NCBI GenBank assembly: GCA_003024175.1
Contig: MDYQ01000018.1
Coordinates: 1-64,000 of the forward strand
Length of the DNA stretch: 64,000 bases
Reading direction: 5' to 3'
From: Planoprotostelium fungivorum
Taxonomy: Eukaryota; Evosea; Variosea; Cavosteliida; Cavosteliaceae
Part shown: positions 1,655 to 64,000 of the stretch, piece after piece
How the letters are laid out: each line of letters opens with the position of its first letter
Numbering within the stretch: the first letter of the stretch is position 1
Translations under genes and position numbers: made by a program
The notes under the pieces: model-generated
The model's database searches: none
What the model saw: the letters and a program-made list of their open reading frames with translations, nothing else
What the model was told of the DNA's origin: nothing

Positions 1655-3851
1655 ATGATGGAGGGAGAGGTAGAGGAAGAACCTGAATTCGTACCACTTC
1701 GAAAGAAACAGAGGAACGATTACGGACAAGAAGATAATCATGTCCCGTCATACTACCAAGAGACAAGCGAGGCGTCCAATCGATCAGAAGAAGACGTGAT
1801 GATGTTGAGGAAGATATATGGTATAGAGGTGAATCAGATGTCACATGATCACCATCTGATCTTGATTCAGATCGATGGAGAACACTGTCCCAATCCAACC
1901 ACCAATTTTTATGAAATGGGCCTGCCTACAGACATCATCTATCGTCTCTTCCATCTTGGCATAGAGGTCAGATGTCATCTTTCACTTCTTTCTCACGTCT
2001 CGCAGTATCCCACACCCATCCAGATGCAATGTTGTCCAGCCATTCTCAGCGGTCGAGACGTGATCGGTAATGCAGAGACGGGATCCGGAAAGACATTAGC
2101 TTACGTCCTGCCCCTCCTCGTTCATCTCCGACACAGAATGCAATCCGAAACATCTGTAGAACCGAACCGAGGTGATCATCTCCGCTTCCAGACATCTCGA
2201 TCATGATCCCACCCTCCATCATCGAGATCTCATCTGACGATAGGTCCCATCGGTTTGATTCTCGTACCTACAAGAGAACTGGTCGAGCAAATCTTCCAAG
2301 AGATCGAAAAATTCACGAGCCCAACTCGAAATCCTTATTTGAGCCACACGATACCCACAACTCATCAGCATGAGGTGATACCTCGAATCGAATTATCATC
2401 GATATCTCTCTTCGTGGGCAACGGTAAAACCATTGAACGAACGACAGTACCTCCCACAGGTGCAAGAGTACAGAGATGGAGACCTATTGTACAGTCACGT
2501 GACTCCAAATCTACCCACCGCCAAGATATTGGGTGTCATCGGAGGTGATTTTCCTCGATTTTCACCGAATTTCCACCGACATCCTCAGGCGTCTCGGTAC
2601 AGTCCCAATTGTCATCGATTCATAGATCTGGCGTGGACGTTGTCATCGCTACACCCGGCAGGCTATTAGACCTCATCGATCGTGGCGCCATAACAACCGA
2701 CAGGTGAGACGAAGTTGGTATCCTACTCTTCTCTTCTTCTCTTCTCCTCCATCCTTAGCTTGAAGATGCGTTCGTTTTCTCAGGAGTATTTTAAAGGCTG
2801 ACGTACTTGGTGTTCGACGAGGCCGATCGCATGCTGTCCTTGAACATGGAAGACCAACTCAGGAAGGTAGGATGTCGACGTCGACACGCGTACAAGTCGA
2901 CATGACTGAGATGTCGACAGTTTGTGGCGGGGTGTACGCAGAGTGTGAGGCAGACGCTGTTGTTCTCTGCCACCATGCCTACCTCTGTCACTCGATTGGC
3001 CAGATCAGCCGTAATGAATCCTATCTACATCGCGGTGGGAGAGGTAAAGTGTCGACGTTCATTATTCCTCTGCAGAGATTGAACGGGACAGGTGGGACAG
3101 TTGGCACAGTCCGTCATACACAATGTCGTTTTCGTCGACAACAAGGATAAGAGGGTGAGGGAGGTATCATGTCACGTGACTGATGACGTCATCAGTCGTC
3201 ACTGTTACGGCTGCTGCGTGAGACACCTCGCCCACCCGTCATCGTCTTCTGCAATCACTCTTACGTCGTGGATCGCGTTGTAGATTGGCTGAAGGAGGAA
3301 CAATTTCACGCGGTAGGTATCCATAGCAACAAATCCCAAAACTACCGTAATACCGTAATGAAGACTTTCAGAGAGGGTGAGAAGTTTCCGAGAAAATCTG
3401 ATGAGATCTCAACGTCGACAGGAGGCGTCGACGTCCTCGTGGCCAGTGATCTCGTCTCGCGAGGTATCGACGTGGCAGAGGTATTTTATTTCCATTTAAT
3501 TAGCATCTACAACGAGGCAGGTGGAGCACGTGATACTGTACGATATACCGGACACCATCGAGGATTACGTGCATCGATCGGGCAGGACGGGTAGGAAGGG
3601 AAGGGAAGGCTACTGTTCGTCTCTACTAACTTGGCATTGCAAAATCGCCCCCGAGTTGAAAAAGTTGTTGAGAGAGGCGCAGCAACAGATGCCCGTGGTG
3701 AGTCGACGAGATGATGGAAGATGAAGAGGTGACGGGAGTTGATGATGGACAGGAGTTGGAGAGGGATACGAGGTTGTTTGGAAAGGATATCGTTTCTACC
3801 GAGTTTGGAGACCATCCGAGGGACAAGATGAAGTATAAAAGTTTGAGATGA
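1655..3851 (+). CDS. DEAD-box RNA helicase, DDX59-like (left copy)
   Basis: ATP-dependent RNA helicase encoded in about eleven short exons. Motifs read in order across introns: Q motif (YPTPIQMQ), motif I AETGSGKT, Ia [10 protein letters not shown], Ib [14 protein letters not shown] (VFDEADRML), III SAT ([10 protein letters not shown]), [17 protein letters not shown] and [12 protein letters not shown]. All catalytic motifs are present, so the enzyme should be active. The N-terminal region (RKIYGIEV, then a conserved DGEHCPNP) and the PTPIQMQ form suggest the DDX59/DDX41-like group. The assignment to DDX59 is by memory of family sequences and is only moderate. The start at 1655 ([11 protein letters not shown]) is preferred; an in-frame codon at 1604 is possible. 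Introns at 2867-2920 and 3155-3195 are full of short palindromes. Confidence 0.85.
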
Positions 3852-3874
3852 CCCGTTTTATCATACAAACAACA

Positions 3875-4200
3875 TCACGCCTGTTCATCATCGGACGGTG
3901 GCTGTTGTATCTGTGTGTCTACGTCAGAAGATTCGAGAGGATGATAGTCACCAGCATGAGCTTCGCATAGAGGGAGGAGTGGAAATGTTGCTGAAATAGG
4001 GGGCTCTCATTGATGAGAAGAGATGTCAAAGATTCGTATGTCTTTTCTTCGATAGAAAATCCTCTCGTCGAATGAAAGACAATATCCAATGTCCCTCCCT
4101 CTAATGTCTCAATGCATACCCGTCTTTCGTCGATACAGGAAGCTTTTCTAACGCCTCCTATTCGCTCTACCTCCGCGACGGCGTCTCTGGCCTCTGACAT
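3875..4200 (-). CDS. GSKIP-domain protein (left copy)
   Basis: A small protein of about 94 residues that matches the GSK3-interacting protein domain: VCIETLEGG near the start of the core, then YESLTSLLINESPLFQQHF and AKLM. In animals GSKIP binds GSK3-beta and PKA; the domain also occurs in CLUH-type proteins. A final intron (right-arm equivalent 31906-31946) joins AKLML to a short tail IQQPPSDDEQA; without splicing the frame ends at once in a similar-length tail. The gene is convergent with the helicase gene, whose stop is 24 bases away. Confidence 0.7.
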
Positions 4201-4436
4201 GGCAGTCGTGCTGATGATTGTTGATCGTTGATTGAGACGAATGACAAGAAATTTTCAAGAATCCATCGTATAGAAGCTTTACGTGAAGGTGCGTTATCTG
4301 TCATGGAACATCTTGCAGAGAATGTGTGTCGATGAACGAGTACAGTTTTCATACTATCGTTTATTCCAGCTCTTCATTGTTGAAAAATGGGTAAAGACCC
4401 GCGTCTATGTATAATGGTATGGTGATCGTTTTGTGA

Positions 4437-4697
4437 TTATCCTGCTGAGACGACACGTACAACGCCTCTTGGGTTGGCAGTAGAGTCCATCTTCTGTTCT
4501 TCCATCGTCTTCTCAGGCTTCGTGTCCTTCGTGAAAAAGTGTGGACTGCTGTGTCTCCTCTGAAGCATCGATGCGTTGGGCTTGAACTCCTTCTCCTCCA
4601 TCTTGATGAAACGCACTCGTGGGTGCTCGAAGCTCTTGCGCTCCTCCACCATGTTGTTGTTGCTCTGTTCTGGACGGTGTATGCTCAAGTTCTCCAT
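4437..4697 (-). CDS. Small hydrophilic orphan protein, 86 aa (left copy)
   Basis: A single uninterrupted frame of 86 residues, rich in Glu, Lys, Asn and Ser, with the core FEHPRVRFIKMEEKEF and a C-terminal RGVVRVVSAG. It has no predicted membrane segment or recognisable domain. The frame is preserved in both arms. It is preceded by an A-rich leader of about 50 bases and followed by an AATAAA-type signal about 80 bases downstream, as expected for a short expressed gene. Function unknown. Confidence 0.55.
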   Translation of the reverse strand: MENLSIHRPEQSNNNMVEERKSFEHPRVRFIKMEEKEFKPNASMLQRRHSSPHFFTKDTKPEKTMEEQKMDSTANPRGVVRVVSAG

Positions 4698-4911
4698 CTT
4701 CTTTGTCTTTTCTCTTTGGTGTTGGTGTTACGAATGTCTTTCGCTGTTCGTGTTGTCCGTTCGGTTTATGGCTTTTCTTTGAGCGTGCTTAGTTCTCACT
4801 TTTTGTGGAAGGCTTAGGTGATTTGAGACGCTTTACAATGAAATTTCCCATAGAAATAGCATTTTCATCATTATCGGAGGCACCCTTCAGAGAAGCAGAC
4901 GAAAGGCGATC

Positions 4912-7824
4912 ATGTCGGGTGATGCTCATAAAGAGAAGGATTAAATGTTCTGAATGATTTCGTAGGGTGGTTCGATACCAATCGTTTCGTTGCGTTTGAG
5001 ACGGTGACAAAAGATGAGATCGCGGTCTATTTGGATCTGTTTCATCAGATGGACAATGGGACCGGTGTTGTGACGGGTGAATTGTTCAATAGAATAGCAA
5101 TTGCTGACTGAGTCAGGCGCGGATGCAAAGTCATTCTTTCCTCAATCGGGTCTTCCAAAGCAACAACTCGCAGTCATCTGGTAGTGTACATTTTGAATTA
5201 CTGCAAAAATAGTAAACAGTGAATGATTCCATCTCAGGAGAACTGCTGACGTCGATCTTGATTCCCGCCTGAATTCTGCGGAATTCGTCTTAGCCATGCA
5301 TCTCTGTTCAGCTGCTCTACTGGGTTACGAGGTACGACCCTCAAGATCGACTTTCATTCGCTCGTCTGAATCATCGCAGATACCCACTTCGTGGATGTAT
5401 CCCGTCCCGGACATCGCCTCTGCCGATTTAGCGAACAACATGCAAAACATGCACATCCACGCTGCACCCAATCATCAGGTAACCTCCTATTCACAAGAAG
5501 AACGACACCTCATCCCTCGTATCAGGCACCTGCAAGAGGCGCTCGACCTCCTCCACCCAATCATCCTCCCAACACATCTCGTCCACAACAGCCTCCACCA
5601 CATCACACCGTACAACCACACCTCCCGCCAAATCCAATCCACCAGAACGCACCATCCACCTACAACCAGCCCCCTCCTCCCTCCCGTGTTCCCGCGCAAA
5701 CTGTACAGAGGGGACCCCACCAGCCCCTCCCCCAGCCCGTACGAACTACAACTGCCGTCGTACCACCTCCAGCTGCCGCGGCAGCAAACCAAGCTAGAGG
5801 AAGGGTCTTACCTATGGCCAAGCGAGCCGAATTAAAGGCGGCCAAATTCGCGCAAGAAGAAGCTGAGAGGGCCGCGGCAGCTGCGGCACCCGTTGTCCTC
5901 TACGGTTTCGAGGATCCACAGGCGATGAACTGGTTGTGGGTGAGGAGATGACGTGGAATGACGTGGAATGACGTCACCAGCCGAGTCACGGTGTTGCGGT
6001 GAATCAGCAGAACGTACCACCTTATGTCATGCCGACACCACCGCCTTCAGTTCAGACGACGATCGGGTTCTTCTGGTCTTTCATCAATGTGATCACTTTT
6101 TTATCCACCATCATCACCCAACATCGGTGGATCCAACCATCACATCATCCATCATCATGACCTTCACCATCGCACCTTCCACCACCTGACATTACGATCA
6201 GCAAGACTGGACATCGATACAGAACTACGTCGTCCCCCAGATGAACAGTCAATCCTTCACTGAATCCATGCTCAACATCCGCAGCTCCATGGGCTCTTCC
6301 GATCAGCTTCGCCTCTTCCCACTCAAGGTCTTCGACAAGGGAAACATCACCACTGTCTACTTTTTATTTCTCGTCGACAACCGCAAATGGGGCATGATGA
6401 CGAGAGTACAAGGTGGGAAGATCTGCAGTTTCTGGGCCAAGACGGATCCGTTAGATGGAGACTTTCCAGAGGTGTGAAATTTCATCGAAATGAAACTGAA
6501 GGGTGAAGCTGACGGAGGGGCTGACACCCAAACTGGTGATCGCGCAAGAGCCACGCAGAATCCTGTGTTACGATGGAAAAGTCATGGAAATCTACGACGA
6601 AGAAGACGAGATAGCGGCCATGTGAGTACTGTGAAATTCTGATGAAATCTCACTGACATCCGTCAGGCGTGACCCAAACGTCCCGTTGGGTCTCATGGTC
6701 GGAGAGACCATGGGATGGAGCATTCGAATGTCATCCACTCTCAAATTCGAGAGCCACACGCCCAAAGCCATGATCTACCACCCTCCCGAACTCTCCGGAC
6801 AATGTCTCGTCCCCGGAACCATCGTTACCAAGCCGACCCAAAGTGACGTACCCGAATTGGGCGTCACCATCATTGAATCGAAGAGTGGTGCGGTGGATCC
6901 ACTGGTGTTACAGTACCACATCGCCACCAGGGCCACACGTCTGAGCCCGATGTATGTCAACGAGAGGTGAAAACGAGGTCGAGTGATGCGGTGATGACGT
7001 CATAGGTTCGTGCAGTGTCCCCGCCCGACGGACAGGCAGATGGCCGGTCTGAAGGCCCCCACTCTGAAGATCAACTATACCGTCCCAGCCGTCCAGCGTT
7101 ATTTAGATGTGAGACATGATGATGACGATGATGTCGATCGCGATGATGAGCTCATTCGTGTCAGGATACTGGACTTCGAATCCAACCTGGAGAGAGCGTC
7201 ATAGAGTTCGCCAAGAGAGGTTACGCACAAGTGGCTCTGGATTTCACCTACATCATGCCATCCGAACCCAACATGAGCGGTGTCATTGAGAGGAGAATGG
7301 GCGACTGCGGAGGTTTAAACTCCGTCTTTGTCGGTATCCTGAGGTGACCATCACATCATCACGCATCATCTGATGGAGGGAAGGGCCAACGGTGTACCGG
7401 CTCGACTTCTCTATGGGAGACACGCAAAGTCTACGGGTGTGGGACAGACAGAAGAGATCCACATTCAGAGTCAATTTTACGTCGATCATATTGGCTGGAT
7501 ACCCACCGATGTGACCATGTGTGTTCACGGAAAGAACCCCAGGTGAAGAGACGATCACCATCACCATCGCCACATCACATTAGACATGAAGACGGAAGGT
7601 TGACAGGTTGCAGGTATGATCCTCAGGACTGGAAGAGCTTGTTATACAACTTTGGCTGGGACAATGGAAAGTTTCTCACTTTCACCATTCAGCTCTCGTC
7701 CGAATTTGACAGCAACGCCCACCTCTTAGATCGCAGGAACCTCAACGATTACCCGCAGTCCTTCTCTTTCTACGGAAAGTGTGTCGCCTCTTCACCTTCA
7801 TTCGAGGCAGAACGCCTCTTCTGA
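4912..7824 (+). CDS. EH-domain / transglutaminase-like fusion protein (left copy)
   Basis: About fourteen exons (first at 4912-4918, last at 7614-7824). Residues 1-130 form an EH domain: MSGWFDTNRF, LDLFHQMDNGTG, SGLPKQQLAVIW, NSAEFVLAMHL, then IPTSW. EH domains bind NPF motifs in endocytosis. A Pro/Gln/Ala-rich linker of about 150 residues follows. The C-terminal half contains a beta-rich region and a transglutaminase-like core: catalytic Cys in RMGDCGGLNS, GVPARLLYGRHA, His in IHIQSQFYV and Asp in GWIPTDVTM. The triad is intact, so it could be a protease or cross-linking enzyme. The junction between linker and catalytic half (exons 5981-6088 and 6202-6471) is the least certain splice, and two adjacent genes cannot be wholly excluded. 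Confidence 0.7.
6480..6495. repeat. Intronic hairpin TTTCAT-CGAA-ATGAAA
   Basis: A 6-base stem with a 4-base loop inside an intron of the EH/transglutaminase gene. Related stems lie in introns at 52490-52507, 59622-59639 and 60249-60270, in other genes. Confidence 0.75.
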
Positions 7825-7986
7825 TAAATGTCCTTCGTTGGTCCTTCTTACTCTTCTTTTCTTTGTCGTCTGACTAGGATTTGAGTGATAAGCGATGGGT
7901 GCGGCGCATTCGCATTATGCAGTCGAAGCGCGAATGTCACTTCGTTTCGGAAACAAGCATCATCATCGGTGCGGGCCTCTATATAT

Positions 7987-8901
7987 ATGGTAGAATTCAA
8001 AGTGGTCGTGGTGGGCGGTGGAGGCGTGGGGAAATCAGCTCTCACAATTCGTTTCATGAGAAACTTTTTCGTTGAAGAATATGACCCAAGTGAGTATGCA
8101 ACGATCCAAACCGATTTCATACGAGTCATATCATATATCAATTTATCCGCTGAACGAAGAGATCACACCATGATGGTCGATTACATCTACATCTTGGGAA
8201 CATACAAAGATTATATACAAATAGACTGAAACAAGTTTAGCGATAGAAGAGAATTACCGAAAGCAGGTCCAAGTCGACGAGGATGTTTGTCTGTTGGATA
8301 TCCTCGATACAGCCGGACAGGAAGAGTTCAACGCCATGAGAGATTCCTACATGCGAGGTGGACAGGTATGTTCTCATTCACGTAAATTCTCTTCCTTCTC
8401 ATCACCATCCCAGGGGTTCATTTTGGTCTACTCCATCATTGACCGAGAGAGCTTCAACCGAATTCCATTATTACACGCACATTTACTCCAAACGAAAGAG
8501 AATCCAATAGTTCCCTGCGTTCTCGTGGGTAACAAGAGTGATATGGCCGAGGATCGAGAGGTCTCTCTCAACGAGGGACAACAACTGGCTAAATCCTTCA
8601 ATTGTCCGTATCTAGAAGCTTCCGCGAGAGATCGTGTCAATGTGGACGAGGTGAAGACATGCGGAATGAGCTCCATCTGATTCTCATTCTCAGATCTTCT
8701 TCGAAGTGGTCCGACAAGTGCGAACGCAGGACGATAAGAACCCAAACAAATCGAAGAAAAAGAAGGCAGGTTTCTGCTCTTTACTGTGAACGTCTCTTCT
8801 TCTCTGTTTGTGTCGGTCGTGGGAGGACATATTTCATTTCTTTTGTCGAATTATTTGTGATCTACAAAGCGCAAGAAGCGGTTGGCCTGTTGCGGTCTTG
8901 A
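7987..8901 (+). CDS. Ras-family small GTPase (left copy)
   Basis: Five exons. The first encodes [20 protein letters not shown], a P-loop with the Ras-type start; next come [21 protein letters not shown] and EASAR, i.e. G1 and G3-G5 intact. Gly replaces nothing at the codon-61 Gln, which is present. The effector loop reads [12 protein letters not shown], close to Ras/Rap. The polybasic KSKKKK precedes the final intron (8770-8869). With the best splice the tail is [11 protein letters not shown] and has no CaaX cysteine. The alternative frame of the last exon reads [10 protein letters not shown] and continues, so the real C-terminus and lipidation are unresolved. A TATATATA run overlaps the start codon. 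Confidence 0.85.
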
Positions 8902-9166
8902 CACGTTATTTCAAGCTAGGAGACCTGACACAAAGTCCGTCAAGTTCTAGCCTCTAAATACACTCTAATAGCCTGCAAAAGGTAAGAGTTCGAGAGAGAA
9001 TGTTGTCCATCTGATTGATTGGCTAATCAGAGAAAACTCGTCCTGCATTCAGCTCCGCAGCTATTTCTGTATCATCCGAATCATAGCTAAGCCACGTAGA
9101 GAACATACAGGTATCATTTTGGCCTTTACGGCTCAAAGCTGATTGCGTGATCTAGGTTGCATTTCG

Positions 9167-10626
9167 ATGGATCATTCACCAGCAACGCCCACTCGAGCGA
9201 ACGGCTCTCAACCGGTCGTAGATAGTAGTACCCGTGGTTTATTCGCACAGGTGCTTCGCCATTCTATTTCAATGGCACGCGATCTGTCAAGGCTCTCAAG
9301 CTGACCTCCACACAGGTATTCGATCTCATCAACAACTTCGTGGACGATATCCACAAGGTCGAAGCTGCCGAACAGAAGAAGCAACTCTTGATTGGGGTAA
9401 TCATTCCATTTGTCTCCCTCTGATGCATCAAGATTGGAAACCTAAGATTGCACATGGAGACTCTCAAGAACAATATAGAGTCTAAGGAGGCCGCTCTCAC
9501 TTCCGCAGAAGAGGCCGCTAGACGTCGCGTAGAAACACTCATTCCGACACCACCTCCGGCACCCTCTAAGAAGACGAAAGCCGTCTCTACCCCTCCACAA
9601 GGAGATGACGAGAGTAAATCACCAGATCGTCCTCGATCCGCCCGCATCGCCAACCGAAAGAAGAAGCAGAAGAAAGATGTGTCTTCTCCAACCATCCTCG
9701 CAGCCCCACCTCCATCACACAAGAAGCCACCGACAGAAGAACCAACACCTATGGTCACAGAGAACAGACCCGACACCCCTGCAGATGTGGACTCTGCAGA
9801 CATGATGGAAGGTACCGACGAAGGATACGACACTGCTGAAGAAGACATGCGCGAGGAGGGATCTGGAAAGAGGAAGCCCATGACCGAAGAAGAGAAGTCT
9901 AACCGAAAGAGGAGGGGCAACCTGCCCGAGATGATCACCAACGCCCTCAAGAGATGGATCGTAGAGCACTGGGCCCATCCTTATCCCAGCGATGAAGAGA
10001 AGGTCAACCTCTGTGCCACGACGGGCCTCACCCTCACCCAGCTCAACAATTGGTTCACGAATTCGAGGAGGAGATACCTCAAGCCCAAGCAGGGGGGATA
10101 CAGGGGTCAGTTCGAGCCGCCCACCACTCACCAGGTACATCATCTACCTCTAATCATCACGATGCAACGTTGACGCGTCCTACAGGTGGAAGCCATTCTG
10201 ATCGATGAGATCACCAACTCGGCCATGATGGCCAGACATCAGACCGCAGCCGCCGCAGCTGCCCTCGTGCAGAGCTCCGGCCTCGTTCAGCCCGGTGGTC
10301 CTCTTCCCTCCTACTCCCTTCCAGCTTCTCAAGATCCTGCCGCCTTCGCTAACGGCCCCATCTACGGCATCAACGGCCAACCCTACGCATACGATCCCGC
10401 CTACATGCCCTACAGACCTCCCTACGGACGCCCCGGCTACCCATACGTACCCATACCACCACACGGTATGCCTCAGGGATCTCACGGTGAGGCACCACAG
10501 GCTCCTACACCAGCAGCGGCTGCGGCGCCACCTGCATCAGAGGTAGCAACGCCAGCGGCACCGGCTGCAGCTGCACCTCCAGCTGCGTCGCAGGCTGAGC
10601 CCGCTATTAAGGAGGAAGGTAATTAA
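9167..10626 (+). CDS. TALE homeobox transcription factor (left copy)
   Basis: Four exons (9167-9250, 9292-9396, 9433-10134, 10186-10626), about 443 residues. The N-terminal 110 residues are helical (VFDLINNFVDDIHKVEAAEQ) and could dimerise. Residues about 220-280 are a TALE homeodomain: RRGNLPEMITNALKRW, HPYPSDEEK (the three-residue loop), then LNNWFTNSRRRYL with the helix-3 WF-N-R signature. A Thr at the position usually Ile or Gly in MEIS/PBC factors is unusual. The C-terminus is Ala/Pro/Tyr-rich and disordered. It is followed by an AATAAA signal right at the stop codon. The arms differ only near the 3' end by a 6-base indel in an Ala/Pro run. Confidence 0.88.
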
Positions 10627-10639
10627 TAAACGTATAGAA

Positions 10640-11138
10640 AGGCGGGGTATGTTGAGTCCACACCATCGCGCACCTACGATGTGCTGATGAGGACGACCCT
10701 CACCTCTACCAGAACCAAGACGTATCCACGATATCGTCTTCACTTACAGCTACCCTCGTTTAGACGTGCACGTGTCTGTCAATCTCAACCACCTTCTGAA
10801 ATCTCCCCTCTGCGTACATTCGAAGATGGGAAGGGTCTGCGTACCTTTCGATCCACACAAGTGTGATGATTTTGATCCCTCGAGCATATCAGACCTTTCC
10901 ACCCTCGTCGAACAGTTGAGAGACAACCGGTCGATAAAGAGGAAGGTGAGATGATGATGACGGTGGACATGTCACCGTGATGATGATGATGGAGGCTGAA
11001 AGAGAGACAGACGGTAAAGAGGTCGTGCTGACGGATCTGGACGAGCACGTAATTCTTCTCAGAGAAATTTGTGGTTCCTTGAAGGCAGCCATACAGAAGG
11101 AGAAGGCACCCGCAGTCAAGGACGCAACTGATTTTTAA
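10640..11138 (+). pseudogene. DNA primase small subunit, 3' fragment (left copy)
   Basis: The sequence encodes the C-terminal part of eukaryotic PRIM1: HDIVFTYSYPRLDV, NHLLKSPLCVHSKMGR and FDPHKCDDFDP are close to the family consensus, and after an intron the frame ends in KDATDF and a stop at 11138. The N-terminal two thirds with the catalytic Asp residues are absent; the upstream space is taken by the homeobox gene. This copy also lacks 4 bases just before the IVFTYSYPRL codons compared with the right arm, which breaks the frame there. It is most likely a partial duplicate left beside the homeobox gene. Confidence 0.7.
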
Positions 11139-11350
11139 ATATTAATACAAGATGGAACATGATCTTTGTGATGTGATGAACACGGTTACTGGCTGTCTTT
11201 GTAAGCAATATATATACATCACTTTGTCTAAAGTGGACGAATACTGCGATCCACGAAATATTGAAATGTCGCTTGGGGGAGAGAATTTTATCTTCCCATC
11301 ATCAAAACATACAAGTTCGACGAGCAACAACAGTAGCAGTGCACAGAAGG

Positions 11351-12575
11351 ATGGGTTCCTCTCAACAACCTCTACTAGGTGGTGAAGATCTTCACCTGTC
11401 ACCATCTGAAAAGGATCAAATATTACACAAGATCAACCGCCAGTGAGCGTGAATCCTCTCGATCTCTTCCTTGATTGTTTTCTCAGGTGGAATCTAAAGT
11501 TCGTAATGCCCGTCTTTATAGTTTTCACCGTTTGCGGCTGCATCGGAATCTTCCTGACAGCCAACATCCTCAAAAATGACCAAATCTTGATCTCTCTATC
11601 CGGACTCGCCCTCGTCGCTCTTGCATATGGAATCGCGAGTTGGGTGTGGATGAAAAACGATGCAAGGTGAAATTCACCAGTCATTCTGGAACTGAAACAA
11701 ACACAGGGAAAAGGCAGCGGCGGCCCAGCTCTTCGAAGAGCAGTACATTGGAGCTTGGAGGTTTGAGCCACACATGTGGAGAGATTTCGCCAGATACCTC
11801 TTCGAACAGAAGTCGATGCAGACGTGGATCATGGTCGCCATGTCTGTCTTCGTCTTAGCCGGGGGCATCATCTCCTTCAGTATGTCGAACGCATCTTCTC
11901 TATCTTTCGTTGACCCTTCCCAGTCGCCATCGCGGCAACCAATCATACATTGAGCGTGGGCGTCATCTTCTGCATCACCATGATTGTTTCCCTCGTTAAA
12001 TTTACACTTTTTGCCGGCCTCGTCGGTGGGCAAGCTTTCTACCCTCGTTACAGAAGGTGATGTCATCCCCGATACCGGTGCCGACGGTGTCACAGTTACT
12101 CTCCTACCGTCCACTGTTGCGTGTTAGGCAGAGGCTCCATCTACCTACTCGGCACCATGTACATTCTGCAACCCGCTGCAGCTCGTTCTGCTTCAATGGT
12201 CTACAACTTGATATCTGTCACCTTAGAGGAGAAGATGATCGAAACCAATATGACCAAGATACTTCGTTTCGACACAATAACGCAGGCCAAGAAGGATGCA
12301 GTCAAGTTGGAGGTGGATGAGAAGAGTTAAAGGAGTCTGACATACGGTAGGTACCCGTGCCAGATCAGTTTGTGCAGAACGTCGGCAGATGGATGTACAC
12401 TCTGGCAGAAGGTTACACGGAGGATGTGACAAATACGTTGGAGGGTGCGGCAATGAAGGGAGAGGTGAGAGGAATGATCATGTCGTGAGAAGGAAAGTGA
12501 TGACTGACGAGACATCAGGTTGTACCTCAAGCTGTGGCAACGACGTACGTGACAGAGAATGACATCACACCATAA
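11351..12575 (+). CDS. Uncharacterised polytopic membrane protein (left copy)
   Basis: Seven exons (11351-11442, 11487-11666, 11707-11879, 11924-12056, 12132-12312, 12351-12464, 12519-12575) splice in frame to 309 residues. At least four hydrophobic segments can be seen: FVMPVFIVFTVCGCIGIF, ILISLSGLALVALAYGIA, WIMVAMSVFVLAGGIISF, and LSVGVIFCITMIVSLVKF. The C-terminal 110 residues are soluble. I do not recognise the family. The copy in the right arm has a 19-base deletion in the first membrane segment and a different C-terminus, so this left copy is the intact version. Confidence 0.7.
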
Positions 12576-25205: not shown

Positions 25206-25224
25206 CCGCCTTTCTATACGTTTA

Positions 25225-31982: not shown

Positions 31983-32005
31983 TGTTGTTTGTATGATAAA
32001 ACGGG

Positions 32006-50767: not shown

Positions 50768-53700
50768 ATGAGATCCTTGTGTGTCTTCGCCCTGTTTGCG
50801 GTCGCGGCGGCTGCTCTCTCCGGACAGGAGCAGGTGATTCATCTTCTACATCGGATCGTGATTCTAATGTCTGGTGTAGAGACAAGTGCTCGACTCCATC
50901 AACCAAGTGAGAGCTTCTGTCTACCCACCTGCTTCCCCTTCTCTCGCCCCTCTCAGCTGGGATGAAGAACTGGCAACTAGAGCCGCCGATTGGGCAGCCA
51001 AATGTGTCGTAGCTCACAACCCTTCCAATAGGTATGCATCTCTCCATCATCTCCCGCTCTCTTCACAGACTCACACGTATGATTTAGATTCTTACGCACC
51101 GAAACCTTATGGGCTACTCATGGCAATGCCGACGTCACCTTCTCCCACGTGAGCTCCCTCTCCATACCACCTCTCCCATTGACACGATCCAATCATTGAC
51201 ATTCTATACAGGCCGTCGAGGGTTGGTCCCACGAGTCCAGAGTCTTCTCCTGGAACCTTGACACCATCCGAGAGGCCAAGAACTACACCGCCATGGTATG
51301 GCAGAACACGACATCGGTCGGATGCGCCCAGCAAGATTGCGGTGGTTCCATCGGTACCATCTTCCACTGCGTCTTCGATCCGAGAGGAAACTACCCCGGT
51401 CTCATGCCTTACAGCACCACCTGCCACCCCAAGCCCGACACCAACTGTGCTCACAAGTGCGGAAGAGTCTGGGACGGCTGCACCATGCACCAATGTGCAC
51501 CATGCAACGAGCCTTTCTCTCTCGAAAGAAGGTATTCCAATTTCGGCGGGGAACATCAGCTGATGAGACGACAGGAACAAGAGAGCCGCCGATGGACAGT
51601 GCTTCACCTTGAAGGGTTGCACCAACTCAGATCCCAACGAGCCCATTCTGACTGGTGGGAACGATGACGAGTGATGACGCCACTGACACGTCATAGGAGC
51701 CAAGTACACCGACGACAAGGCCATGACCGTGGAGAAGTGCGCGCAATTTTGCATCAACAAGGGATACAGCTACGCCGGTGAGTCCATCTACAACGAGACC
51801 GTTCTGAAAGGGTGATAGGTCTCGTGAACGGTTCAACTTGCGTCTGTGACTGGAATTTTGGAGAAAACGACTCGAACCAGTGCACCAGCAAGTGCCCCGG
51901 CAACCAAGCTCAGTCCTGCGGTGGACAGAACAAGTACCTCATCTACAACGTGGAGAAATGCATTTCCCGTGAGTTTTCCGGGAGATCTCCACCACTAACG
52001 GTTCCACAGAACCAGCCTGCAAGAACAACGCTTGTCTCGCAAAGTCCGATCTGCAGTGGAGAACTGGACTCACCATCAGCAACGTCCCCGGCTGCATCAA
52101 CTACTGCGCTCAGCAGGGTTACTCTTACATGGGTATCTCCAAGGTCTGGTGTCTGTGTGCCAACAGCTACAGTGAGTCTGACATCCATAGACGCACGTTC
52201 TGAATGGAGACAGCCACGAACAAAGCTCTACCCACCGCTCGATGCAACAACTTTTGTGGTGACAACTCCACTTGCGGTAACACTGATGACTCTGTCGTCT
52301 CTGTCTACTCCACCGTCGGCTGTTCTGCCAAGGGGTGAGATCGGGAGATTTCGATGAGATGTCAATGAAATTTCAGTTACGAGTACACACCCGCCTTTGA
52401 TTGGCGTAAGAAGGGAAACGTAGTTGGAGCCGTGAGAAACCAAGCCTCTTGCGGTACCTGCTGGTCTTTCGCTTCTACTTCCGCTGTGAGTTTCAACGAA
52501 ATGAAACCCACACTGATTCTACCAGTTGGAATCTGCCTGGGCCATCAACTACAACCGAACTGCCCCCGTATTGTCCGAGCAACAGGTGGGTGTCCGTCTA
52601 CAACGAGCCACGTCTGATGGAGACAGATCACTGCCTGCTCCAAGCAGGGAGGATGTGGAGGTGGTAACAACGGTGACGCCTGGGGTTGGGTTCAGAAGAA
52701 CGGAGGACAGGCTTACAGCAACCAAGTCGATCCCTTCCAAGCCAAGGACTCTAACTCGGGCGCCAGATGTCTCACGGTGAGCCAAAGATGTCTGAAAAAT
52801 GATATTCAATTCTTTTAGACCAAGAGTGAAGTCACCATCGCACCCAATGCACCCAACACGATCGTCAGAGCGAAGGGTGAGCATCTACAACGTTGTAGAC
52901 GAGTGACGAGGAGCAGGTAGCGAGGATGCCATCGTGAAGGCCCTCGAGTACGGACCCGTCTACATGGGTATCACCCTGGCCTCTTGGTTCGGAGGGTACA
53001 GCGGTGAGGCTGTTCCCGCCAAAACGTCAGGTGACTGTTGCAGGTGGAGTGTACATCGATGACAAATGGGCCACCACCCAGGGTGAAGGAGGACACGCCA
53101 TGACCATCGTCGGTTACGGAACAGACTCAAAGACCAAGCAGGACTACTGGATCGTCAAGAAGTGAGCCACCATCTACAACGTTGTAGATTGACGTTGTCA
53201 GCCAATGGGACATCACGTTCGGTCTGAACGGTTACGTCCTCTGGGCCAGAAACAGAGCCGGAGGTACCGGAGGTATCCTTGTGAGTCGAACGTTCTGGGA
53301 AATTTCCCTGAACATTCTCAGAACAGCATCGCCCATCCCAACATCCCCGTGACACCCAAGGACAAGACCCTCTTTGGCAAGCAGGTACAGATCAGACAAG
53401 TTAGCAGTGGAAACTGTGTCACTGCCAACACTTGGTTTGACGGCGGCGAGCTCACCCTTGCTCCCTGCGCAGGAAAAGAAGGACAAGTCTTCACAGTGAG
53501 TCGTGGCGTTGTAGACAGAGGAATGACTTGTTGTAGATTGCCAACAACGGTGTTGACGAGCAGTACACCCTTGGGATTAGCACAAAGAAGGGATGGTTCA
53601 TCGATTCTTGGTACGCCAACAAGGGAGAGAGTGTGAGTCATCATCATGATGATCGTGTCACTGACGATGTCTATAGGTACACTGTGCCAGCTCTGGAACT

Positions 53701-53871
53701 GGTGACAAGTCTCGAATCACATTCATCATCAAGAGCTTGGGATCAAAGCAGTACCAGATCAATGGAGTAGGAAACTCTTACTCCTTCTCCACCAATGGAG
53801 ACGGTAAGCTCAAATTTCTGGACTATGTTGTCAGCGGCCCCACCAATGATGGGAAGTGGGTCTTGGCTTAA
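50768..53871 (+). CDS. CAP - WSC - WSC - papain-like protease fusion
   Basis: A secreted mosaic protein in about seventeen exons, roughly 740 residues. A signal peptide (MRSLCVFALFAVAAAALS) is followed by a CAP/SCP domain (LSWDEELATRAADWAAKC, ADVTFSHAVEGW, YTAMVWQNTTSVGC, DPRGNYPG). Two WSC-like carbohydrate-binding domains come next (FCINKGYSYAG, CPGNQAQSCGG; then CINYCAQQGYSYMG). The protease is a C1A papain with NQASCGTCWSFA (Gln and catalytic Cys), GGHAMTIVGYG (His) and YWIVKNQWD (Asn). A C-terminal beta-trefoil-like region follows (VQIRQVSSGNCVTANTW, ITFIIKSLGSKQYQING). No I29 propeptide precedes the papain domain. Domain identities are firm; exact exon edges are inferred. Confidence 0.85.
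53172..53189. repeat. Perfect copy of the intronic palindrome ATCTACAACGTTGTAGAT
   Basis: An 18-base perfect palindrome in an intron of the papain-fusion gene. Half-sites or near-full copies are found in introns at 3505, 45435, 45631, 45805, 45947, 51786, 52596, 52883, 53507, 56261, 56491, 59751, 59781, 59992, 60328, 61332 and 61356. Confidence 0.85.
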
Positions 53872-54912
53872 TGCAAGATGGATTGTATGTCTATGATGAT
53901 GTGAGACAACCAATAAATGATCTCTCTATTTCCAATTGCATGTTCTATGATAGGGCAAGGCAGTTCGATCCTATAGTTTGAAATCTCCAACTGGGTTGTG
54001 TGTCCACCGTAAGCTCACCAAGTCAGAAAGTGCCAAAAGCACTCCCCAAAATAAGAAGTGCAGGGATTACAACAAAATATTTGTTTGAAAGAGTTTGTAC
54101 AAAGCAGAATGGCAATGATAAAATGAGAACATATAGATTTGTGATAGGATCATGCAACCTGAAAATGATGTAAGGTTACATCAAACAACATTAAGTTCAT
54201 GTACTGTGATCAATGACTTATGATGATGTGCGTATCAGCCATTTCACCACTGGGGCAAGTTGGGGTCAGAAACCCCAGCATACATCAATCTGACTCGGAA
54301 CTGCACATCATCCACAAGTCACTTAGTCATTTCATGTCTGACTTTTCTCCTATTTTGGCATTTGCGCTTTTATGGGAAGCCTCATTATGATACAATGACA
54401 TCTCTCTTCTGTCTCTCTTCTTTGTTTATTGTTTTTTCAGACCATTTTTTACTTGATGTTCTCTTACTGTGTTAATCACAAATCAGATGATTTCATCTTC
54501 TTCAACCCCTCAAGTAAAAACACCACCATTATCATAAGGGAATATTGATGGCATCACCTCTGGATGATGTATCTTAGGTGGTTGCTCTTTTCTGAAATGA
54601 TGTGCACATCATTTTAGTTCACAATGGACAGCACACTTTGGTGGAGGTGTTTGAACTGTTAACAAGAAAAGCAAATAAAGAGATGTGACTCTGTTTTTTT
54701 TTAAACAATGTGTGTTGCATGTGCAACAGATTTTGAAATCTGGTCTAGGAGATGCACTTGAGTTGATTAAGGGTTAAGAGGATATTCCATCGTGTTGTCT
54801 GCTGATCGATCTCGTCCGAAAAATCCCGATTCTCGTTTGTAATTCTTTTTGGATTTGTGTGACGAATGAGCCATTACAGAACGAAAATTCAGAAACGCTC
54901 CCGCACGCCAAC
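53872..54912. other. Gene-free, A/T-rich stretch of about 1 kb
   Basis: After a polyadenylation-type AATAAA near 53914 the sequence becomes clearly richer in A and T than the rest of the window, with only short frames. No tRNA, transposon end or conserved protein is apparent. It may be a long untranslated region, a non-coding RNA gene or a decayed insertion. It is the longest stretch without a gene in the window. Confidence 0.6.
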
Positions 54913-57268
54913 ATGCAACACAAGAGAGGCTCGAGAGACTTACAAGGTGAGTTATCCTCTCACAAAACCTTAGATCTCACACTCCATTAGACAACTTTGC
55001 ACCGGATAGTCCATCCATCCAAAAGTTCTTAGACAAACCGTCGCCCTCTACCTCTACCTACAAGAGAGATATCCTTTCTTATCGTTCAAATTTTCAGTCA
55101 TCTTTCCATCGGATGACGTCATGTCGCATAGCCCTTATTATTCCCTTGACTCTTTTCACCTCTAAACAGTCGTATCTTCGTGAATCGTGATTTGAGGCTG
55201 GACAAGATCAAATGGATCGGATGTGAGAATCCATCCTCTGGATGAAACTCACCCTCACAGTTGACATGGATTACACGTTGGCCTCTTACAACTCCCCCGC
55301 CTACGAGAGTCTGACCTACGATCTCATCACGGAGCAGCTAATCAAGATGGGTTATCCACACCAGCTGTCTTCCATGTCTTACGACCCAGAATTCCCCGTC
55401 AGGTGCGTCCCCCATTCCATTTCCATCTCATCTTCATCTGTGATCGACAACATAATCCTCACGTCTTACAGAGGAATCTATTTCGATAAAGTCTTGGGTC
55501 ACCTCATCAAGGTAATGATCCATCCCACCATGATGGAGTGCATCGTCTGAATGAATTAAATAGGTTGATTCCTTTGGAAGTATCGTTCGATGCCTTCATG
55601 GGAGGCGAACACTGACCAAGCAAGAGATATCCGAACTATACCCTTCTTTCACCGTTCCCACCCAAGACATTGAAAAACGGTAATCTCTCTTCCATCTCAT
55701 CACTGCATCATGATCTCACATCATCTGTGATCATCTGTGATCATCTTCGCCACACGACAAGATTCCCTTATTCTTGCGTAGTTACTGGCCATTACCCACT
55801 TTGTTCAACCTCCCCGAAGCTTGTCTATATGCCAACTTGATCGACTATTTTTTCAATCGAGACGAGAAACGCCTATTGAGACAGTCCAGAGAGGACGTTT
55901 CCTTCGAGGGTGAAGAGACAGCGAAGAAATCTGCATCTGATGGATCTGATAGGATCTGGTCCCACCATCACGAATTTGTTCCAGGACGTCAGATTGGCCA
56001 TGGACCACGTTCACCTCACCGGTTTACTCAAGGAGAGGACACTGGCTGACAAGGAAAAGTGATGGAATCTTCAGTCGATTTTCGAAGAAAATTCTGACGT
56101 AAGACAGGTACATCAAGAGGACACCCGACACTGCCGTTCTGCTCGATCGCCTGCAGAAGGCGGGAATCAAGGCTTTTCTTCTGACCAATTCTGAATTCTA
56201 TTACACTCACGCCGTCATGTCTTATCTGCTGGAGGGACACGGTGACGGAGTGAGAATCTCGTTGTAGATCGTCTCATTCTGATGAAACGACAGGTGTCGC
56301 TCAACAAATCGTGGAGAGATTTCTTCAGTGAGTGATTGTGATCACCTATCGATCGATATTAACCTGTACAGCTGTCATCATTGTGAGCGCGGGAAAACCG
56401 AGTTTCTTCTCGCAGGGTACCACTCTTCGTGAAGTCGACATCATAACGGGAAATCTCATGGTAAATCTCGATGAAAATTCGTTTTTAACCTCGTTGTAGA
56501 TTTCGAAGATCGAGAAATTCAACCAGGGCCACGTGTACCAGGGTGGATCAATTGGTTTATTCAACAGCCTCACGGGCATCAAGGGCAACGAAGGTGAGAT
56601 GAAATCTCGATGAAATCTCACCGAAGTATCAGTCTTGTACGTCGGTGACCACATCTACGCCGACATCATAAAATCGAAGAAAATCCACGCTTGGAGGACA
56701 CTCCTCGTCATCCCCGAATTAGAGAAGGAGCTCAACGTGTGGGTGCGTACAGTACGTATCCATATCTCCACTCACCCTGTCTCAGCAAGAGTGTACCGCA
56801 CTCGTCCAACAATTGAGAAAGTTGGAATGGATGAAAGCAGAAGTCTTCCGTAATCTCACATCAGAAGACACGCAACCCCCCGTGAGACACGTTCGAGTAA
56901 AGACGGGACGCTGACAGCGTCACAGGACACGACAGACATCAGGAAGCACAAGAAGGTCGTCGTAGAGAGGATCGATCACTCGTACAACTCTTACTTTGGA
57001 TCTCTCTTCTCGAGCGGATCGAAGAACACTTGGTTCGCCAGCCAAGTCATGAGATACGCCGATCTGTACTCATGTGAGAGTCATTCGTATCATTTTGTCG
57101 AGATGGTCCGATATCTTGTGAAATGATGGTATCACGATTCTACGTCTACAACGTGCCCGGTCGTAACTGATGATGAACAGACGACTACCTCAACCTGTTG
57201 AACTATCCTCTCTTCTATCACTTCACGGCACAGTATCAGAACATGCCACACGTCCAAGAGGAGAAATA
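54913..57268 (+). CDS. Cytosolic IMP/GMP 5'-nucleotidase, cN-II family
   Basis: About fifteen exons. The HAD motif I DMDYT is in [20 protein letters not shown]; conserved cN-II stretches follow: [69 protein letters not shown]-like motif [26 protein letters not shown] (motif IV), [14 protein letters not shown] and [12 protein letters not shown]. It hydrolyses IMP and GMP and sets purine nucleotide pools. It lacks the long acidic tail of the human enzyme and ends HVQEEK. Confidence 0.87.
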
Positions 57269-58259: not shown

Positions 58260-61200
58260 CTATTCTATTAAAATACCATTCTCTATGACCTTCTCCTCTT
58301 CTCCTGGTGCGGTTTGTGCGATGGTGTCGTCCGATATAATTGCCTCTATGAACTTGTCTTCGTTCTGGAGGTCGCATGAGAGGTGTCGCACGCATGATGA
58401 TAGAGGATACGAAGGTGTCGTGAGATCAAAGAGATACCTGGGTGGGGACGTCTGGGTGTGGTTGTGTCTGATCTGGTGTGGGAGTGACCTGGTCGGGGGG
58501 AAGGTCTTGGGCTGGATCTGTCGGATCTGACATCCTATTTAGATCTTCCTGCTCTTTCACAAATTGCTCGCGAAGGTGGCGAAGCTGCTCAGGGCTGAAA
58601 CCGAAACCGGCGACTGATTTGATTCAGTGACGTCAGGCAACATGGAAGATGCAAGATGCAAGATGGAGATGTGAAGAAGATGGAGATGTGAAGGAAGATG
58701 GAAGATGTGAAAATGGGTGAGATGATTAAGAGGAGGATGGAAGATGTGAGATGTCGAGCGATATCATATCAGATGAGCTGAATGACCTGCAGCTGCAAAG
58801 GTCTTCTCATCGATGTTGGTGTTGGTCGTCTCGGGGTTCTCGGATGTGATGGCAGGTGATGCGAGCTCCTGATTAAGAGTTCAGTTATCTCATACACCCT
58901 CATTCTCACCACAGCAGGTGAGCCACTGATGGCACCCGTAGACATTGCTTCGTCCGCGCTCCCCACGCTGCTCGTATCAAAGTGACGTGGACTGCATGGG
59001 TCATCTTCTGTATGAGTTGGAAGATGTCCATCTCACTTTGTAAAATACTTTGCAAAAGCGGATGTGAGGAGAGGACGACCTTGAGATTGGGATGCGAGCT
59101 CTAAGAGGGACTCGGCTGTCTTGGCGATGTCGGGTGTCTGATGATGGAGATCAGATCGTATGATGGTGAAGGAGATGCATCTCACGCTGTCGATGGGTGC
59201 AGTCTTTACGAGAGGCTCTTGGATGCTGCTCAACCTCTGATTACGCTCTTGCTTCAACTTGATGATATCATCTTGACGTTGCTGTCGTCTCTCAGTCTCA
59301 TTGCACGATGAACGTCGCTGATGATGGTTCATCATCACCTTTAAGAGGATGCCCTCTTCCGTCTGCAGGTCTTTGATCTCTTCCAAGTAGCTCCTGTCCA
59401 CCTGATACCTTCAGTCTTCCTCTCTTCCCTCTTTCACCTTTTGTATGACTTTGGAGAAGATCATCTCATCGTAGAGGAGATCTGACACGGACGAGATCAA
59501 GTTTTCCTTGTAGACTTGAATGTCTTTGTCCAAGTAAGAGTGGATCATGATGTGAATGGACTCTGCCAACTCATCGTCCATGAGCTGCGTTCGGTTTGTG
59601 ATGGATTCTGCAGAGGGTGAGGTTTCATTAGAATGAGACGACTGACCGATGGTGTACTTCTCCATGGTCTTTAGATTCTCCGAGGTAAATTTCCGGCTTG
59701 GGTTACCCTCCAAGAAATCGAGTATCAACAGATCCAACCTCTTCGTGATGATCTACAACGAGTCAATGACGTCTCTTGGCTCGTTGTAGATACCTGCTTG
59801 GCGAAGAATTCGTCCGTGTATTCCGATGACAATTCGGTCGCCTCCTCTTCCTGCTGCCACGTCATCAAACGTCATCGGTCACGTGATCACCTCTTCCTGT
59901 CTGTTCTCCTCCGCATTCACGTCAGTTACCGCACCTCCACGCGTCAGCGTGGATTCTTCCGTAGATTGTTCCGCAGTACTGCGGGTCGTCTGGTTGTAGA
60001 TCGTCAGATCCACACCAAATGCGTTTACTTCACCCTCTCTTTCGTCCACTGTTCAAAGTGCCTCATGAACTCATCTTCTAAGTCGTGTGACTTGATCTTC
60101 TGCAACAGTTGTAGAGCGTTGAGTAAGAAGAGACCATCGGATGGATGGAGGAGAAAAGGAGAGAAGGCTGAGGCGATTTCGGAACCGAGAAAATTCAAGA
60201 ATTCTTCCGGTTCTGAGATCACGTGATCGGAGTCTCCGCTGTCACATTGAGTTTCATTGGAATGAGACTCTCACCCTCCGATGACGTCAGTCAAGCCCAC
60301 GGTGTCTTCCTCCTTCTCACGTCATCCATCTACAACGAGACATCTCTCACCGTGACGATCTGCTCTCCCGCCTCTTCTTCTTTCACCTGCTGTGCGAATC
60401 TGACGTACTTTTGTTTCTCCTCTTTCGTCAATTGTGACACGTACTCAGGACTCAGTCCATCTAACGCTTCTTCCACTTCCGAATCGTCTTCCTTCTCGAG
60501 TTGAATCTCGGGAAAGTGGAGATGCTTCACCTCTGAGTCAGGGTCCACCATGTCTTGGGAGGCTTTGTCACCCTCATCACTGCTCTCTTCGATGTAGCGG
60601 GGTGAAAAATGCTTGGGAGCTGCTGGAGATCGATTCTGTCGGCTGTCGACGCCCAGGCTGTCGACGTTGATTACAATGGGTGGGGTTCGTATCACCTGCT
60701 GGCCTCTTGCTGAGCCTTGCGGAGTTGTAGACGGTACCTCTCGGATAATCTCATCTGGTCTGTGTCTTCTCTGTCGTCAGAGACTCCGAGTGACACCTGT
60801 CAGTGTCAAATCGATCACGTGACTGGTGATACCTGTGTGTAGGGGTAGCTGGGTTGATCGCCTCTGACTTGAACGTTATTGATGAATTGCAATTTTCCCT
60901 CCTTCTACAATCAGTTTCATCATTTTTCATCGTATGCAGAAATGAGAGACGCTTACCTTCCAAGCTCTGTACTCAGAGTCTGAAAACTCTTCAATTTCAG
61001 ATTCAGATCCGCTGGAGGAATCGTTGCGTTGTAGATTCGGCTTGGCTGGATTCAAGCTCGCGTTACGATTCTGGTTCTTAGGTGCAGAGGTCTGTTCTGA
61101 AGAACGTGCGACGTCACTCTTCAGCTGTCTCAATTCCGTCTGGACTGTGTCGACAGATCGCTTTTGTCGACTACGGTGACTCACTTGAATGGTGGAAATC

Positions 61201-62432
61201 TGTTCGGTTTGCATTCTCATGTAAGATAGAATGGCTTTCAAGTCTTCGTTGTAACTTCCACTGTTTCTATTGTTCTCCTCTTCTTCTTCCACGCTCGACG
61301 GATATCTGCTGGATTATTCATCACTTTCATTCTCTACAACGAGCCGTATCGTCTCATCTACAACGATCAGACGCACCTCTCGTTCCTCTTCGATGCCTCT
61401 TGGTTGGGAGACTGTCTCTTGTTCTTCTGTTGATTATTTTTCTTCTGAATGTCTTGTCTCTCCTCCTTCCTCTTCTTCTTTCCCTTGCCGTGGGGTAACG
61501 CTTGACCTCTACCGTGACATCACTCATGATATCGCAACGTAACGGTACGTACCTCGGTTGTTGGTTCTGTTTGGGAGGGTTGCGATGGTAACGACGTTGA
61601 CCCTCTTCTTCTGACCCCTCTGACTCAGTGATCTCATCCGACCCTAGATCATACTGAACATTCTTCGAATTGTTTCGAACCACGATATTTGGCCTAGATG
61701 GCTGGGATGATCATGAGAATTCGAGTCTGTTCACATCACGTCACCTCATCGTAGTCGACGTAGTTGTCTACGTCTCTGTACTGAGGGACGGGGGGTTGAA
61801 TGAGAGCCGCCTCTTCCTGGAGAGCTTTGAGGAGTTCTAAGATGTTATGTTCATCTGTAGCTCTCTTGTCGGCTGTCTTTTTCTTCTGTCCTGCATAACC
61901 TTCTTTGGAGAATCAGGAGGGAGGGAGCAGATGATGGACTCACCGAAGGGGGGTCTATTTCTATCTTCCGGCGTAGGTTGATGATTTCGGGAATGATCTC
62001 CTCCTCTGTTCATGATCTTGATGGGATGATCTGGTTTGGGTTCGAAACCTCCCATCACACGTTTGGATGATGATTCAATCTGTGCTGGTCGCTGATTTTG
62101 TAGAGCTTGTAATTCCGAAGCCAGACCTCTGTACTCGTTCAACGTTCTCTGAAGCTTTTCCAATTCATCTCTGCGGCTGATATAATGATCAATCGTGATA
62201 AATTCCGGGCGTCCATATCGGCACGCCAGCTTTACCTCTTCAATCTCTCGAGTTCTTGTAGGCTATTCAATAAATCGTGAGACACCTCCACATCTTCTTC
62301 CTGTGCGATATCTTCGTTTCGCCTGTGTACTTGCTTCACGGGTGTGTGTCTCTCTACGACGATGGTGGGTCGTCCCTGATTACGATTTGTCTCTCTTCTC
62401 CCCAGCCTTTCGACTGCTCTCTCCCAGTCCAT
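58260..62432 (-). CDS. Large coiled-coil protein, PCM1-like
   Basis: A long minus-strand gene with many exons, start MDWERAVERLGRRE at 62432 and end VIENGILIE near 58260. It encodes charged coiled coils (LNSLQELERLKR, KLQRTLNEYRGLASELQALQ, YNEDLKAILSYMRMQTEQI), acidic disordered linkers, and a helical core (DGLFLLNALQLLQKIKSHD, then SVSDLLYDEMIFSKVIQKV). The last segment resembles the PCM1 C-terminal core (a leucine-rich run with FDEL-F-K). PCM1 builds centriolar satellites. The match is short, so treat it as a lead. Introns contain the ATCTACAACGA motif (59751, 59781, 60328, 61356) and GTTTCAT hairpins. Confidence 0.6.
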
Positions 62433-63986: not shown

Positions 63987-64000
63987 GTTGGGCTTTCCAG

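Follow-up and report, generated by a model that had tools for sequence, protein, structure and literature searches.

A short word, TCTACAACG (consensus ATCTACAACGAGNC, with a nine-letter core), recurs in the small introns of a 64,000-nucleotide stretch of DNA from the amoeba Planoprotostelium fungivorum (GenBank assembly GCA_003024175.1, contig MDYQ01000018.1, positions 1 to 64,000; hereafter the window). The word is enriched in introns, its core is near-invariant, it occurs in both orientations, it lies well inside gene bodies, and its introns are restricted to four genes plus one. From these properties we tentatively favour, with slightly less than even confidence, the reading that the motif is a site for a double-stranded-DNA-binding factor, housed in the gene-body introns of a few genes. 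If it is such a DNA-level site, confined to gene-body introns of about 40 nucleotides (nt), it would show a compact eukaryote genome putting minimal introns to regulatory use, with implications for the persistence of dense, tiny introns.

The abundance of the word far exceeds what base composition predicts. Over the window, mirror copies (see below) included, CTACAACGA occurs 19 times against 0.29 expected, a count that 0 of 100 dinucleotide shuffles reach, and CTACAACG ranks first by the ratio of observed to order-3 expected copies among all 8-mers with at least eight copies (33 vs 2.22). A T precedes CTACAACG in all 33 of these copies, and 29 of the 36 copies of TCTACAAC are TCTACAACG. Modelled introns hold 17 copies of CTACAACG, compared with 0.2 in dinucleotide shuffles. 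A preliminary description of this DNA had held that such sharing between introns is not expected from splicing signals alone, and that the idea would fall if the motif were no more frequent in introns than in base-matched random sequence; within this window the intron excess is clear and the argument stands.

Self-comparison of the window reveals a large inverted repeat, in which positions 1-17419 mirror 18408-35856 at 90.7-99.8% identity. Each arm spans about 17.4 kb around a centre of about 1 kb, with 99.8% identity over the outer 10.8 kb and 90.7% and 95.4% in the inner parts; the structure may be a real palindrome, or else two haplotypes folded back on each other in the assembly. Four pairs of motif sites are mirror images of each other (3276/32573, 3506/32343, 14088/21731 and 16038/19781), and our counts use positions from 17928 onward, the unique half with the mirror removed, unless stated otherwise, which leaves 29 oriented sites. 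Genes and their introns were predicted by constrained dynamic programming, with long open frames as the training set. The window yields 26 models, 24 of them scoring above 12, and the unique half contains 217 modelled introns, of which 185 are 75 nt or shorter, mostly 36-50 nt, and 80 open with a GTGAG donor. Pfam matches mark g16 as a DEAD-box helicase, g24 as a 5'-nucleotidase and the end of g25 as a cyclin; those in g21 comprise a purple acid phosphatase adjoining an Alg9-like mannosyltransferase, and g21 is probably two genes, while g23 combines CAP, WSC and papain matches. Alignments of g24 and g16 to solved structures cross splice junctions, and structure alignments together with Pfam ranges lend protein support to 50 introns of g16, g21, g23 and g24.

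Within the unique half, introns carry 21 of the 29 oriented sites in 12.5 kb (1.68 per kb), against 7 sites in 29.5 kb of exons and 1 in 4.1 kb of intergenic DNA (0.24 per kb in each); this is the comparison of compartments that the preliminary description had proposed, made here inside the window. That description counted about twenty introns of unrelated genes. The recurrence is confirmed, with the number corrected to 17 modelled introns, or 16 without the mirror copy; several genes are indeed involved, but the spread is not window-wide, as 15 of the 16 introns belong to four genes at 44.3-62.5 kb and some sites are coding or intergenic. The motif is present in 16 of the 217 modelled introns and in 12 of the 50 with protein support, distributed as four introns in the phosphatase part of g21, five in g23, three each in g24 and g25, and one in g16. 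The remaining models lack it in their introns, as does the mannosyltransferase half of g21 (0 of 17). Among introns of up to 110 nt, the motif is present in 15 of the 70 that belong to g23-g25 or to the phosphatase part of g21, and in 1 of 130 elsewhere (Fisher p 6e-7, for a region picked after the per-gene counts were seen); among the 173 introns of up to 60 nt, the 14 that carry it come from five genes out of 17 (p 0.0016 by permutation). The motif introns, two coding copies and the repeat arm are as follows.

3481-3520, forward strand: intron of the DEAD-box helicase model g02, with a forward motif close to the 3' splice site, at 3506; mirrors 32337-32376.
32337-32376, reverse strand: intron of g16, mirror of the g02 intron and the copy used for counting; protein-supported.
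45404-45443, forward strand: intron in the part of g21 that matches a purple acid phosphatase; the 3' end of the intron is CTCGTTGTAG, a reverse motif; protein-supported.
45623-45662, forward strand: intron of the phosphatase part of g21, with the 16-base palindrome TCTACAACGTTGTAGA at 45632; protein-supported.
45786-45835, forward strand: intron of the phosphatase part of g21, with a forward motif at 45806 and a GATGACGTCATC palindrome; protein-supported.
45940-45981, forward strand: intron of the phosphatase part of g21, with a reverse motif at 45948; protein-supported.
51778-51818, forward strand: intron of g23 (CAP-WSC-papain), with a forward motif at 51787; protein-supported.
52586-52626, forward strand: intron of g23, with a forward motif at 52597; protein-supported.
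52877-52916, forward strand: intron of g23, with a 16-base palindrome at 52884; protein-supported.
53162-53201, forward strand: intron of g23, with the 18-base palindrome ATCTACAACGTTGTAGAT at 53172; protein-supported.
53496-53536, forward strand: intron of g23, with a reverse motif at 53507; a second TTGTTGTAG forms the 3' end.
56250-56293, forward strand: intron of g24 (5'-nucleotidase), with a reverse motif at 56260; protein-supported.
56461-56508, forward strand: intron of g24, with a reverse motif at 56492 and a candidate alternative in-frame 3' splice site at 56499; protein-supported.
57074-57180, forward strand: longer modelled intron of g24, with a forward motif at 57145; protein-supported, exact borders uncertain.
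59753-59793, reverse strand: intron of g25, with a motif at each end, inverted; folds at -16.5 kcal/mol.
60313-60350, reverse strand: intron of g25, with a reverse motif at 60329.
61306-61376, reverse strand: intron of g25, with two direct copies, at 61333 and 61357.
51942-51950, forward strand: coding copy of the 9-mer in g23 (..LIYNV.., beside a WSC domain); modelled coding sequence, outside the intron set.
39865-39873, forward strand: coding copy of the 9-mer in g19 (..LYNV..); modelled coding sequence, outside the intron set.
1-17419, no strand: arm of the inverted repeat, mirroring 18408-35856 and not to be counted twice.

The seven unique exonic copies include one encoding RVVD inside the helicase alignment, IYNV beside a WSC domain, LYNV in g19, and two in the doubtful model g09.

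Across the 217 introns the core is near-invariant, with 19 exact copies and 5 one-mismatch variants (1.5 expected), three of which differ only at the last base of the core. Beyond the core, the 15 non-palindromic intron sites share recurring bases mainly at a few positions, A(-1), AG(+9,+10), C(+12) and, more weakly, C(+17). Three introns go further: those at 45786 and 52586 have 16 bases in common from the motif on, and the reversed 45940 intron shares 15 with both. Relative to the gene, six non-palindromic intron sites are forward and nine are reverse. In three more introns two overlapping inverted copies merge into a palindrome, of 18 bases at 53172, as had been described before, and of 16 bases at 45632 and 52884. 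A few introns contain paired copies, among them an inverted pair in 59753-59793 and a direct pair in 61306-61376, again in agreement with the earlier account. Judged by eye for the branch region, some copies lie upstream of it, after the donor; others lie downstream of it, before the acceptor, or form the acceptor itself. Its hosts keep an ordinary size, 14 of the 16 being 38-50 nt long.

Neither strand nor place seems to matter to the motif, and its near-invariant core is set in flanks that are for the most part unrelated; together these features point to a site that is recognised as double-stranded DNA. The sites show no strand preference relative to transcription, and the conserved core is bounded, three introns sharing somewhat more than the rest. 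A similar argument has been made for fission yeast promoter motifs, whose occurrence on two strands was taken as a sign of action at the DNA level (PMC4770384). We therefore agree with the preliminary description in so far as a bound factor is the best supported of its three options (the others being intron spread and a structural splicing aid), but place the binding at the level of DNA, as the orientation-free, near-invariant core suggests. We hypothesize that a sequence-specific DNA-binding protein would recognise ATCTACAACG(AGNC), either alone or as the overlapping inverted dimer ATCTACAACGTTGTAGAT. In an intron-dense, compact genome, introns of mostly 36-50 nt would be the sole non-coding DNA inside genes, so the site would sit there, in either orientation, wherever splicing signals leave room. 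A subset of genes would carry several gene-body copies, over 1 kb away from the modelled start codon, and binding would probably affect the transcription or chromatin of the genes that bear them.

Several observations weigh against this reading, which draws on the sequence of one 64-kb window. Exons also exceed shuffles (7 sites vs 0.00 in 10 shuffles), at one seventh of the intron density. The specificity for introns has a regional basis: at 44.3-62.5 kb introns hold 3.6 sites per kb, exons 0.17 and the 1.1 kb of intergenic DNA none, and at 17.9-44.3 kb the values are 0.15, 0.30 and 0.35 per kb in the same order. Since introns are no richer than exons in the second region and exons have an excess of their own, intron specificity depends on one region. 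Within genes the motif introns form no runs (1 adjacent pair vs 0.94 expected). An ordinary transcription-factor site would be expected in promoters and regulatory intergenic DNA as well, and we find 0 sites in the 1.1 kb of intergenic DNA at 44.3-62.5 kb and 1 in 4.1 kb overall; at the intron density about 4 would be predicted in the former, a small sample, and this absence counts against a simple transcription-factor version of the model. Most factors tolerate variants of their sites, so near-complete invariance is unusual. Finally, none of the 16 motif introns is nearer than 1056 nt to the modelled start codon, unlike promoter-proximal intronic enhancers, and among the other introns of the same genes 31 of 74 lie less than 1050 nt from the start (permutation P 0.0004, post hoc; P 0.05 for mean distance alone).

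Intronic transcription-factor and enhancer sites are known to be orientation-free, to have palindromic-dimer architectures and to be restricted to particular genes, and the motif resembles them in all three respects. It differs from them in being found only in gene-body introns of about 40 nt, with none in the 1.1 kb of nearby intergenic DNA, and in having few variants. The TTNGATYTG motif of Arabidopsis intron-mediated enhancement is likewise short, repeated and enriched in introns, and is reported to act independently of splicing (PMC6760150). Its sequence is unrelated, and such introns are reported to have no effect beyond about 1 kb downstream of the transcription start; the present motif is orientation-free, and 16 of 16 of its introns lie beyond that distance, measured from the modelled start codon.

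We next consider whether the motif could act as RNA. Introns as a class fold better than their shuffles (mean z -0.48, s.e.m. 0.09, n = 185), which exon pieces do not (-0.03, n = 250), and the mean is -0.96 for 15 motif introns and -0.44 for the others. The intron at 59753-59793 is almost a single hairpin, and the three palindromic introns can fold. These data would suit an RNA structure that aids splicing, in which the motif and its complement pair to bring the splice sites together or to expose them. Further in its favour, motif-free introns show weaker excesses of inverted repeats with arms of 4 at spacers of 7-8 (39 vs 27.5) and 17-24 (60 vs 44.4) and, when one mismatch is allowed, at every spacer of 0-6, so that some general hairpin tendency is possible. 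However, only 4 of the 16 motif introns contain both exact arms, the other 12 having one; copies fall on either side of the branch region, as judged by eye; and the strongest general excess of inverted repeats is at spacer 0, with none for perfect arms at spacers 1-4 in 170 motif-free introns. We therefore regard a splicing role for such structures as improbable. The structural splicing aid put forward in the preliminary description is not supported as a general role, with both orientations in use and so few introns having both arms, although single introns do fold strongly.

A related proposal is base pairing between introns of the same transcript, a forward copy in the first joining a reverse copy in the second, which would lead to regulated exon skipping or circular RNA. 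The four genes with at least three motif introns each hold both orientations, and the copies cluster by gene. With so many copies, however, both orientations are likely to occur by chance, a 12-base duplex is short, and introns of about 40 nt are presumably removed before distant pairing could take place, and we consider this proposal highly improbable. A branch-point or small nuclear RNA (snRNA)-pairing element was also entertained and, with no comparison to snRNA sequences, dropped, because the motif occurs in both orientations and, by eye, both upstream and downstream of the branch region.

Alternatively, the copies could be what is left of a tiny mobile repeat or introner, or the seeds of one: whole introns or parts of them would have been copied into genes, and only a core of 9-13 bases, perhaps a terminal inverted repeat, would still be recognisable. 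The occurrence in both orientations, the inverted and direct pairs, the clustering in neighbouring genes and the 15-16 bases shared by the introns at 45786, 52586 and, reversed, 45940 would all fit, and there are precedents: Amoebophrya introners are described as having an inverted repeat at each end and direct repeats flanking them (PMC7789003), and introners with DNA-transposon features are described from many lineages (PMC9860276). Nevertheless, in a target-site-duplication test modelled on that of PMC9860276, the flanks of 185 introns match no better than randomly paired ones (best z 2.5, reached at a single offset out of 17), and the 15 motif introns among them give a best z of 1.3, offsets inside GT/AG being uninformative. 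Complementarity between 5' and 3' ends, pooled over the 185 introns at 13 shifts, does not rise above random pairs, and 59753-59793 is the sole end-to-end inverted-repeat exception among the 16 motif introns. Nor do the columns around the core, compared here in place of end-to-end intron alignments, show sharing over full length: column information from 15 sites is concentrated at -1, +9, +10, +12 and +17, leaving little in common apart from the core itself and four or five flanking positions, and window self-comparison at E 1e-10 contains no intron repeat. Decaying copies should vary, whereas mutated copies are few, and 14 of the 16 introns retain the common length. The diverged part of the mirrored arms contains no motif intron. 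On balance an introner origin seems unlikely to us, and the introner-like spread suggested in the preliminary description finds no support, as little beyond about 13 bases is common save in three introns. Compared with the introners of Amoebophrya and of the wider survey (PMC7789003, PMC9860276), the motif is alike in being an inverted-repeat-like sequence repeated in introns of unrelated protist genes; it differs in having no direct-repeat or target-site-duplication signal and no common whole element, and in residing in modelled GT-AG introns. The symmetrical stwintrons of Hypoxylaceae are likewise described as internally symmetric introns that recur in a genome (PMC8469720), but there a whole nested intron recurs and here one short word is common.

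The motif-free introns hold a surprise of their own. In 170 of them, perfect palindromes with zero spacer outnumber those in shuffles by 52 to 24.6 for arms of 4 (2.1-fold) and by 23 to 6.3 for arms of 5 or more (3.7-fold), and the 23 remain in excess under order-2, order-3 and cross-intron nulls (6.5-7.5). For arms of 4, no such excess is seen in exons (69 vs 65.6, 742 pieces) or in intergenic DNA (11 vs 11.4, 112 pieces). The 33 protein-supported motif-free introns show it weakly (8 vs 6.3 for arms of 4; 6 vs 1.8 for arms of 5, with up to 7 in shuffles). The palindromes are diverse in sequence and found in 12 of 17 models, and several are perfect in one of the diverged arms only, by one or a few changes, and thus not strictly conserved. 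Complementarity of splice signals is near chance: the reverse complement of the first 4, 5, 6 or 7 intron bases occurs inside the intron 40, 11, 4 and 3 times, vs 32.1, 8.9, 2.7 and 0.6. The intron-only excess of perfect zero-spacer palindromes is an anomaly not readily explained by splicing signals or simple RNA hairpins, and may be a separate mutational or regulatory phenomenon.

On the mutational side, template switching during replication or repair could transfer short tracts, forward or inverted, from one intron to a nearby one or within a single intron, and also make zero-spacer palindromes. Template switching is reported to produce mutations that perfect inverted repeats (PMC3820800), and this known precedent, the palindrome excess itself, the regional clustering of the motif and the 11-mers common to pairs of motif-free introns in the two orientations (28 and 23 vs 10.1 and 7.8) all speak for local copying. 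Against it, partial copies of the core are few (29 of the 36 noted above are complete), 10- to 12-mers shared by motif-free introns are not clearly nearer to each other than random pairs (0-18% within 3 kb, vs 12%), and intergenic DNA has no excess of arms-of-4 palindromes. We think it unlikely that copying of this kind accounts for the motif. A bolder, regulatory alternative, which we rate as rather improbable, is that tiny introns serve as sockets for a DNA address code of dyad-symmetric words (CTACAACG, TGACGTCA, CACGTG and many others), each gene group having its own word and the introns being maintained as a platform for binding within gene bodies. The excess of zero-spacer palindromes that is specific to introns would then be the general signature of this code, and the CTACAACG motif its clearest member.

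Some copies touch the splice sites themselves. The preliminary description had the end of the motif serving as the 3' splice site in several introns, and CGTTGTAG does end those at 45404-45443 and 59753-59793; in a third case, at 56491, the model splices 9 nt later, at 56508, though the motif may act as the 3' splice site there too. In the alignment of g24, the in-frame TTGTAG site would add three residues and shorten a gap relative to 5'-nucleotidases. In the g24 intron at 56461-56508 (forward strand) a pair of in-frame 3' splice sites lies 9 nt apart; the motif forms one of them, a possible alternative acceptor.

The 18-base palindrome has 0 matches in viral contigs and 15 loci in a prokaryote collection, all titled bacteria, where about 4 are expected in 257 billion random bases; these loci are not independent (5 Flavobacterium, 3 spirochaetes), and we see no link to the window. 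A 17-base form occurs once in each of two viral contigs, which we take as chance. A search of viral contigs with the g24 protein found no relative, and Rfam gave no match at gathering scores. By titles and the starts of abstracts, the literature matches listed for CTACAACGA with introns contain nothing on the subject, and those listed for intron motifs in either or both orientations describe no such motif.

Other features of the window deserve mention. The words TGACGTCA and TCACGTGA also recur in introns (e.g. 32662, 45786, 28852, 21654 and 48449), with 9 and 6 intron sites and 3 and 2 exonic copies, respectively, and none in intergenic DNA. In g23 (50646-54088, forward strand) the CAP, WSC and papain-type protease domains are joined in one predicted protein, a fusion that is, to our knowledge, unusual. 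The translation of g19 (37963-40629, forward strand) looks like ankyrin-like repeats followed by a protein-kinase-like domain, and those of the open frames at 25687-26433 and 63417-63998 (both reverse strand) contain stretches resembling TALE-class homeodomains. Lastly, an imperfect short direct repeat at 48939-49109, with 80.8% identity, encodes a His/Ile/Ser-rich repeat in one frame.

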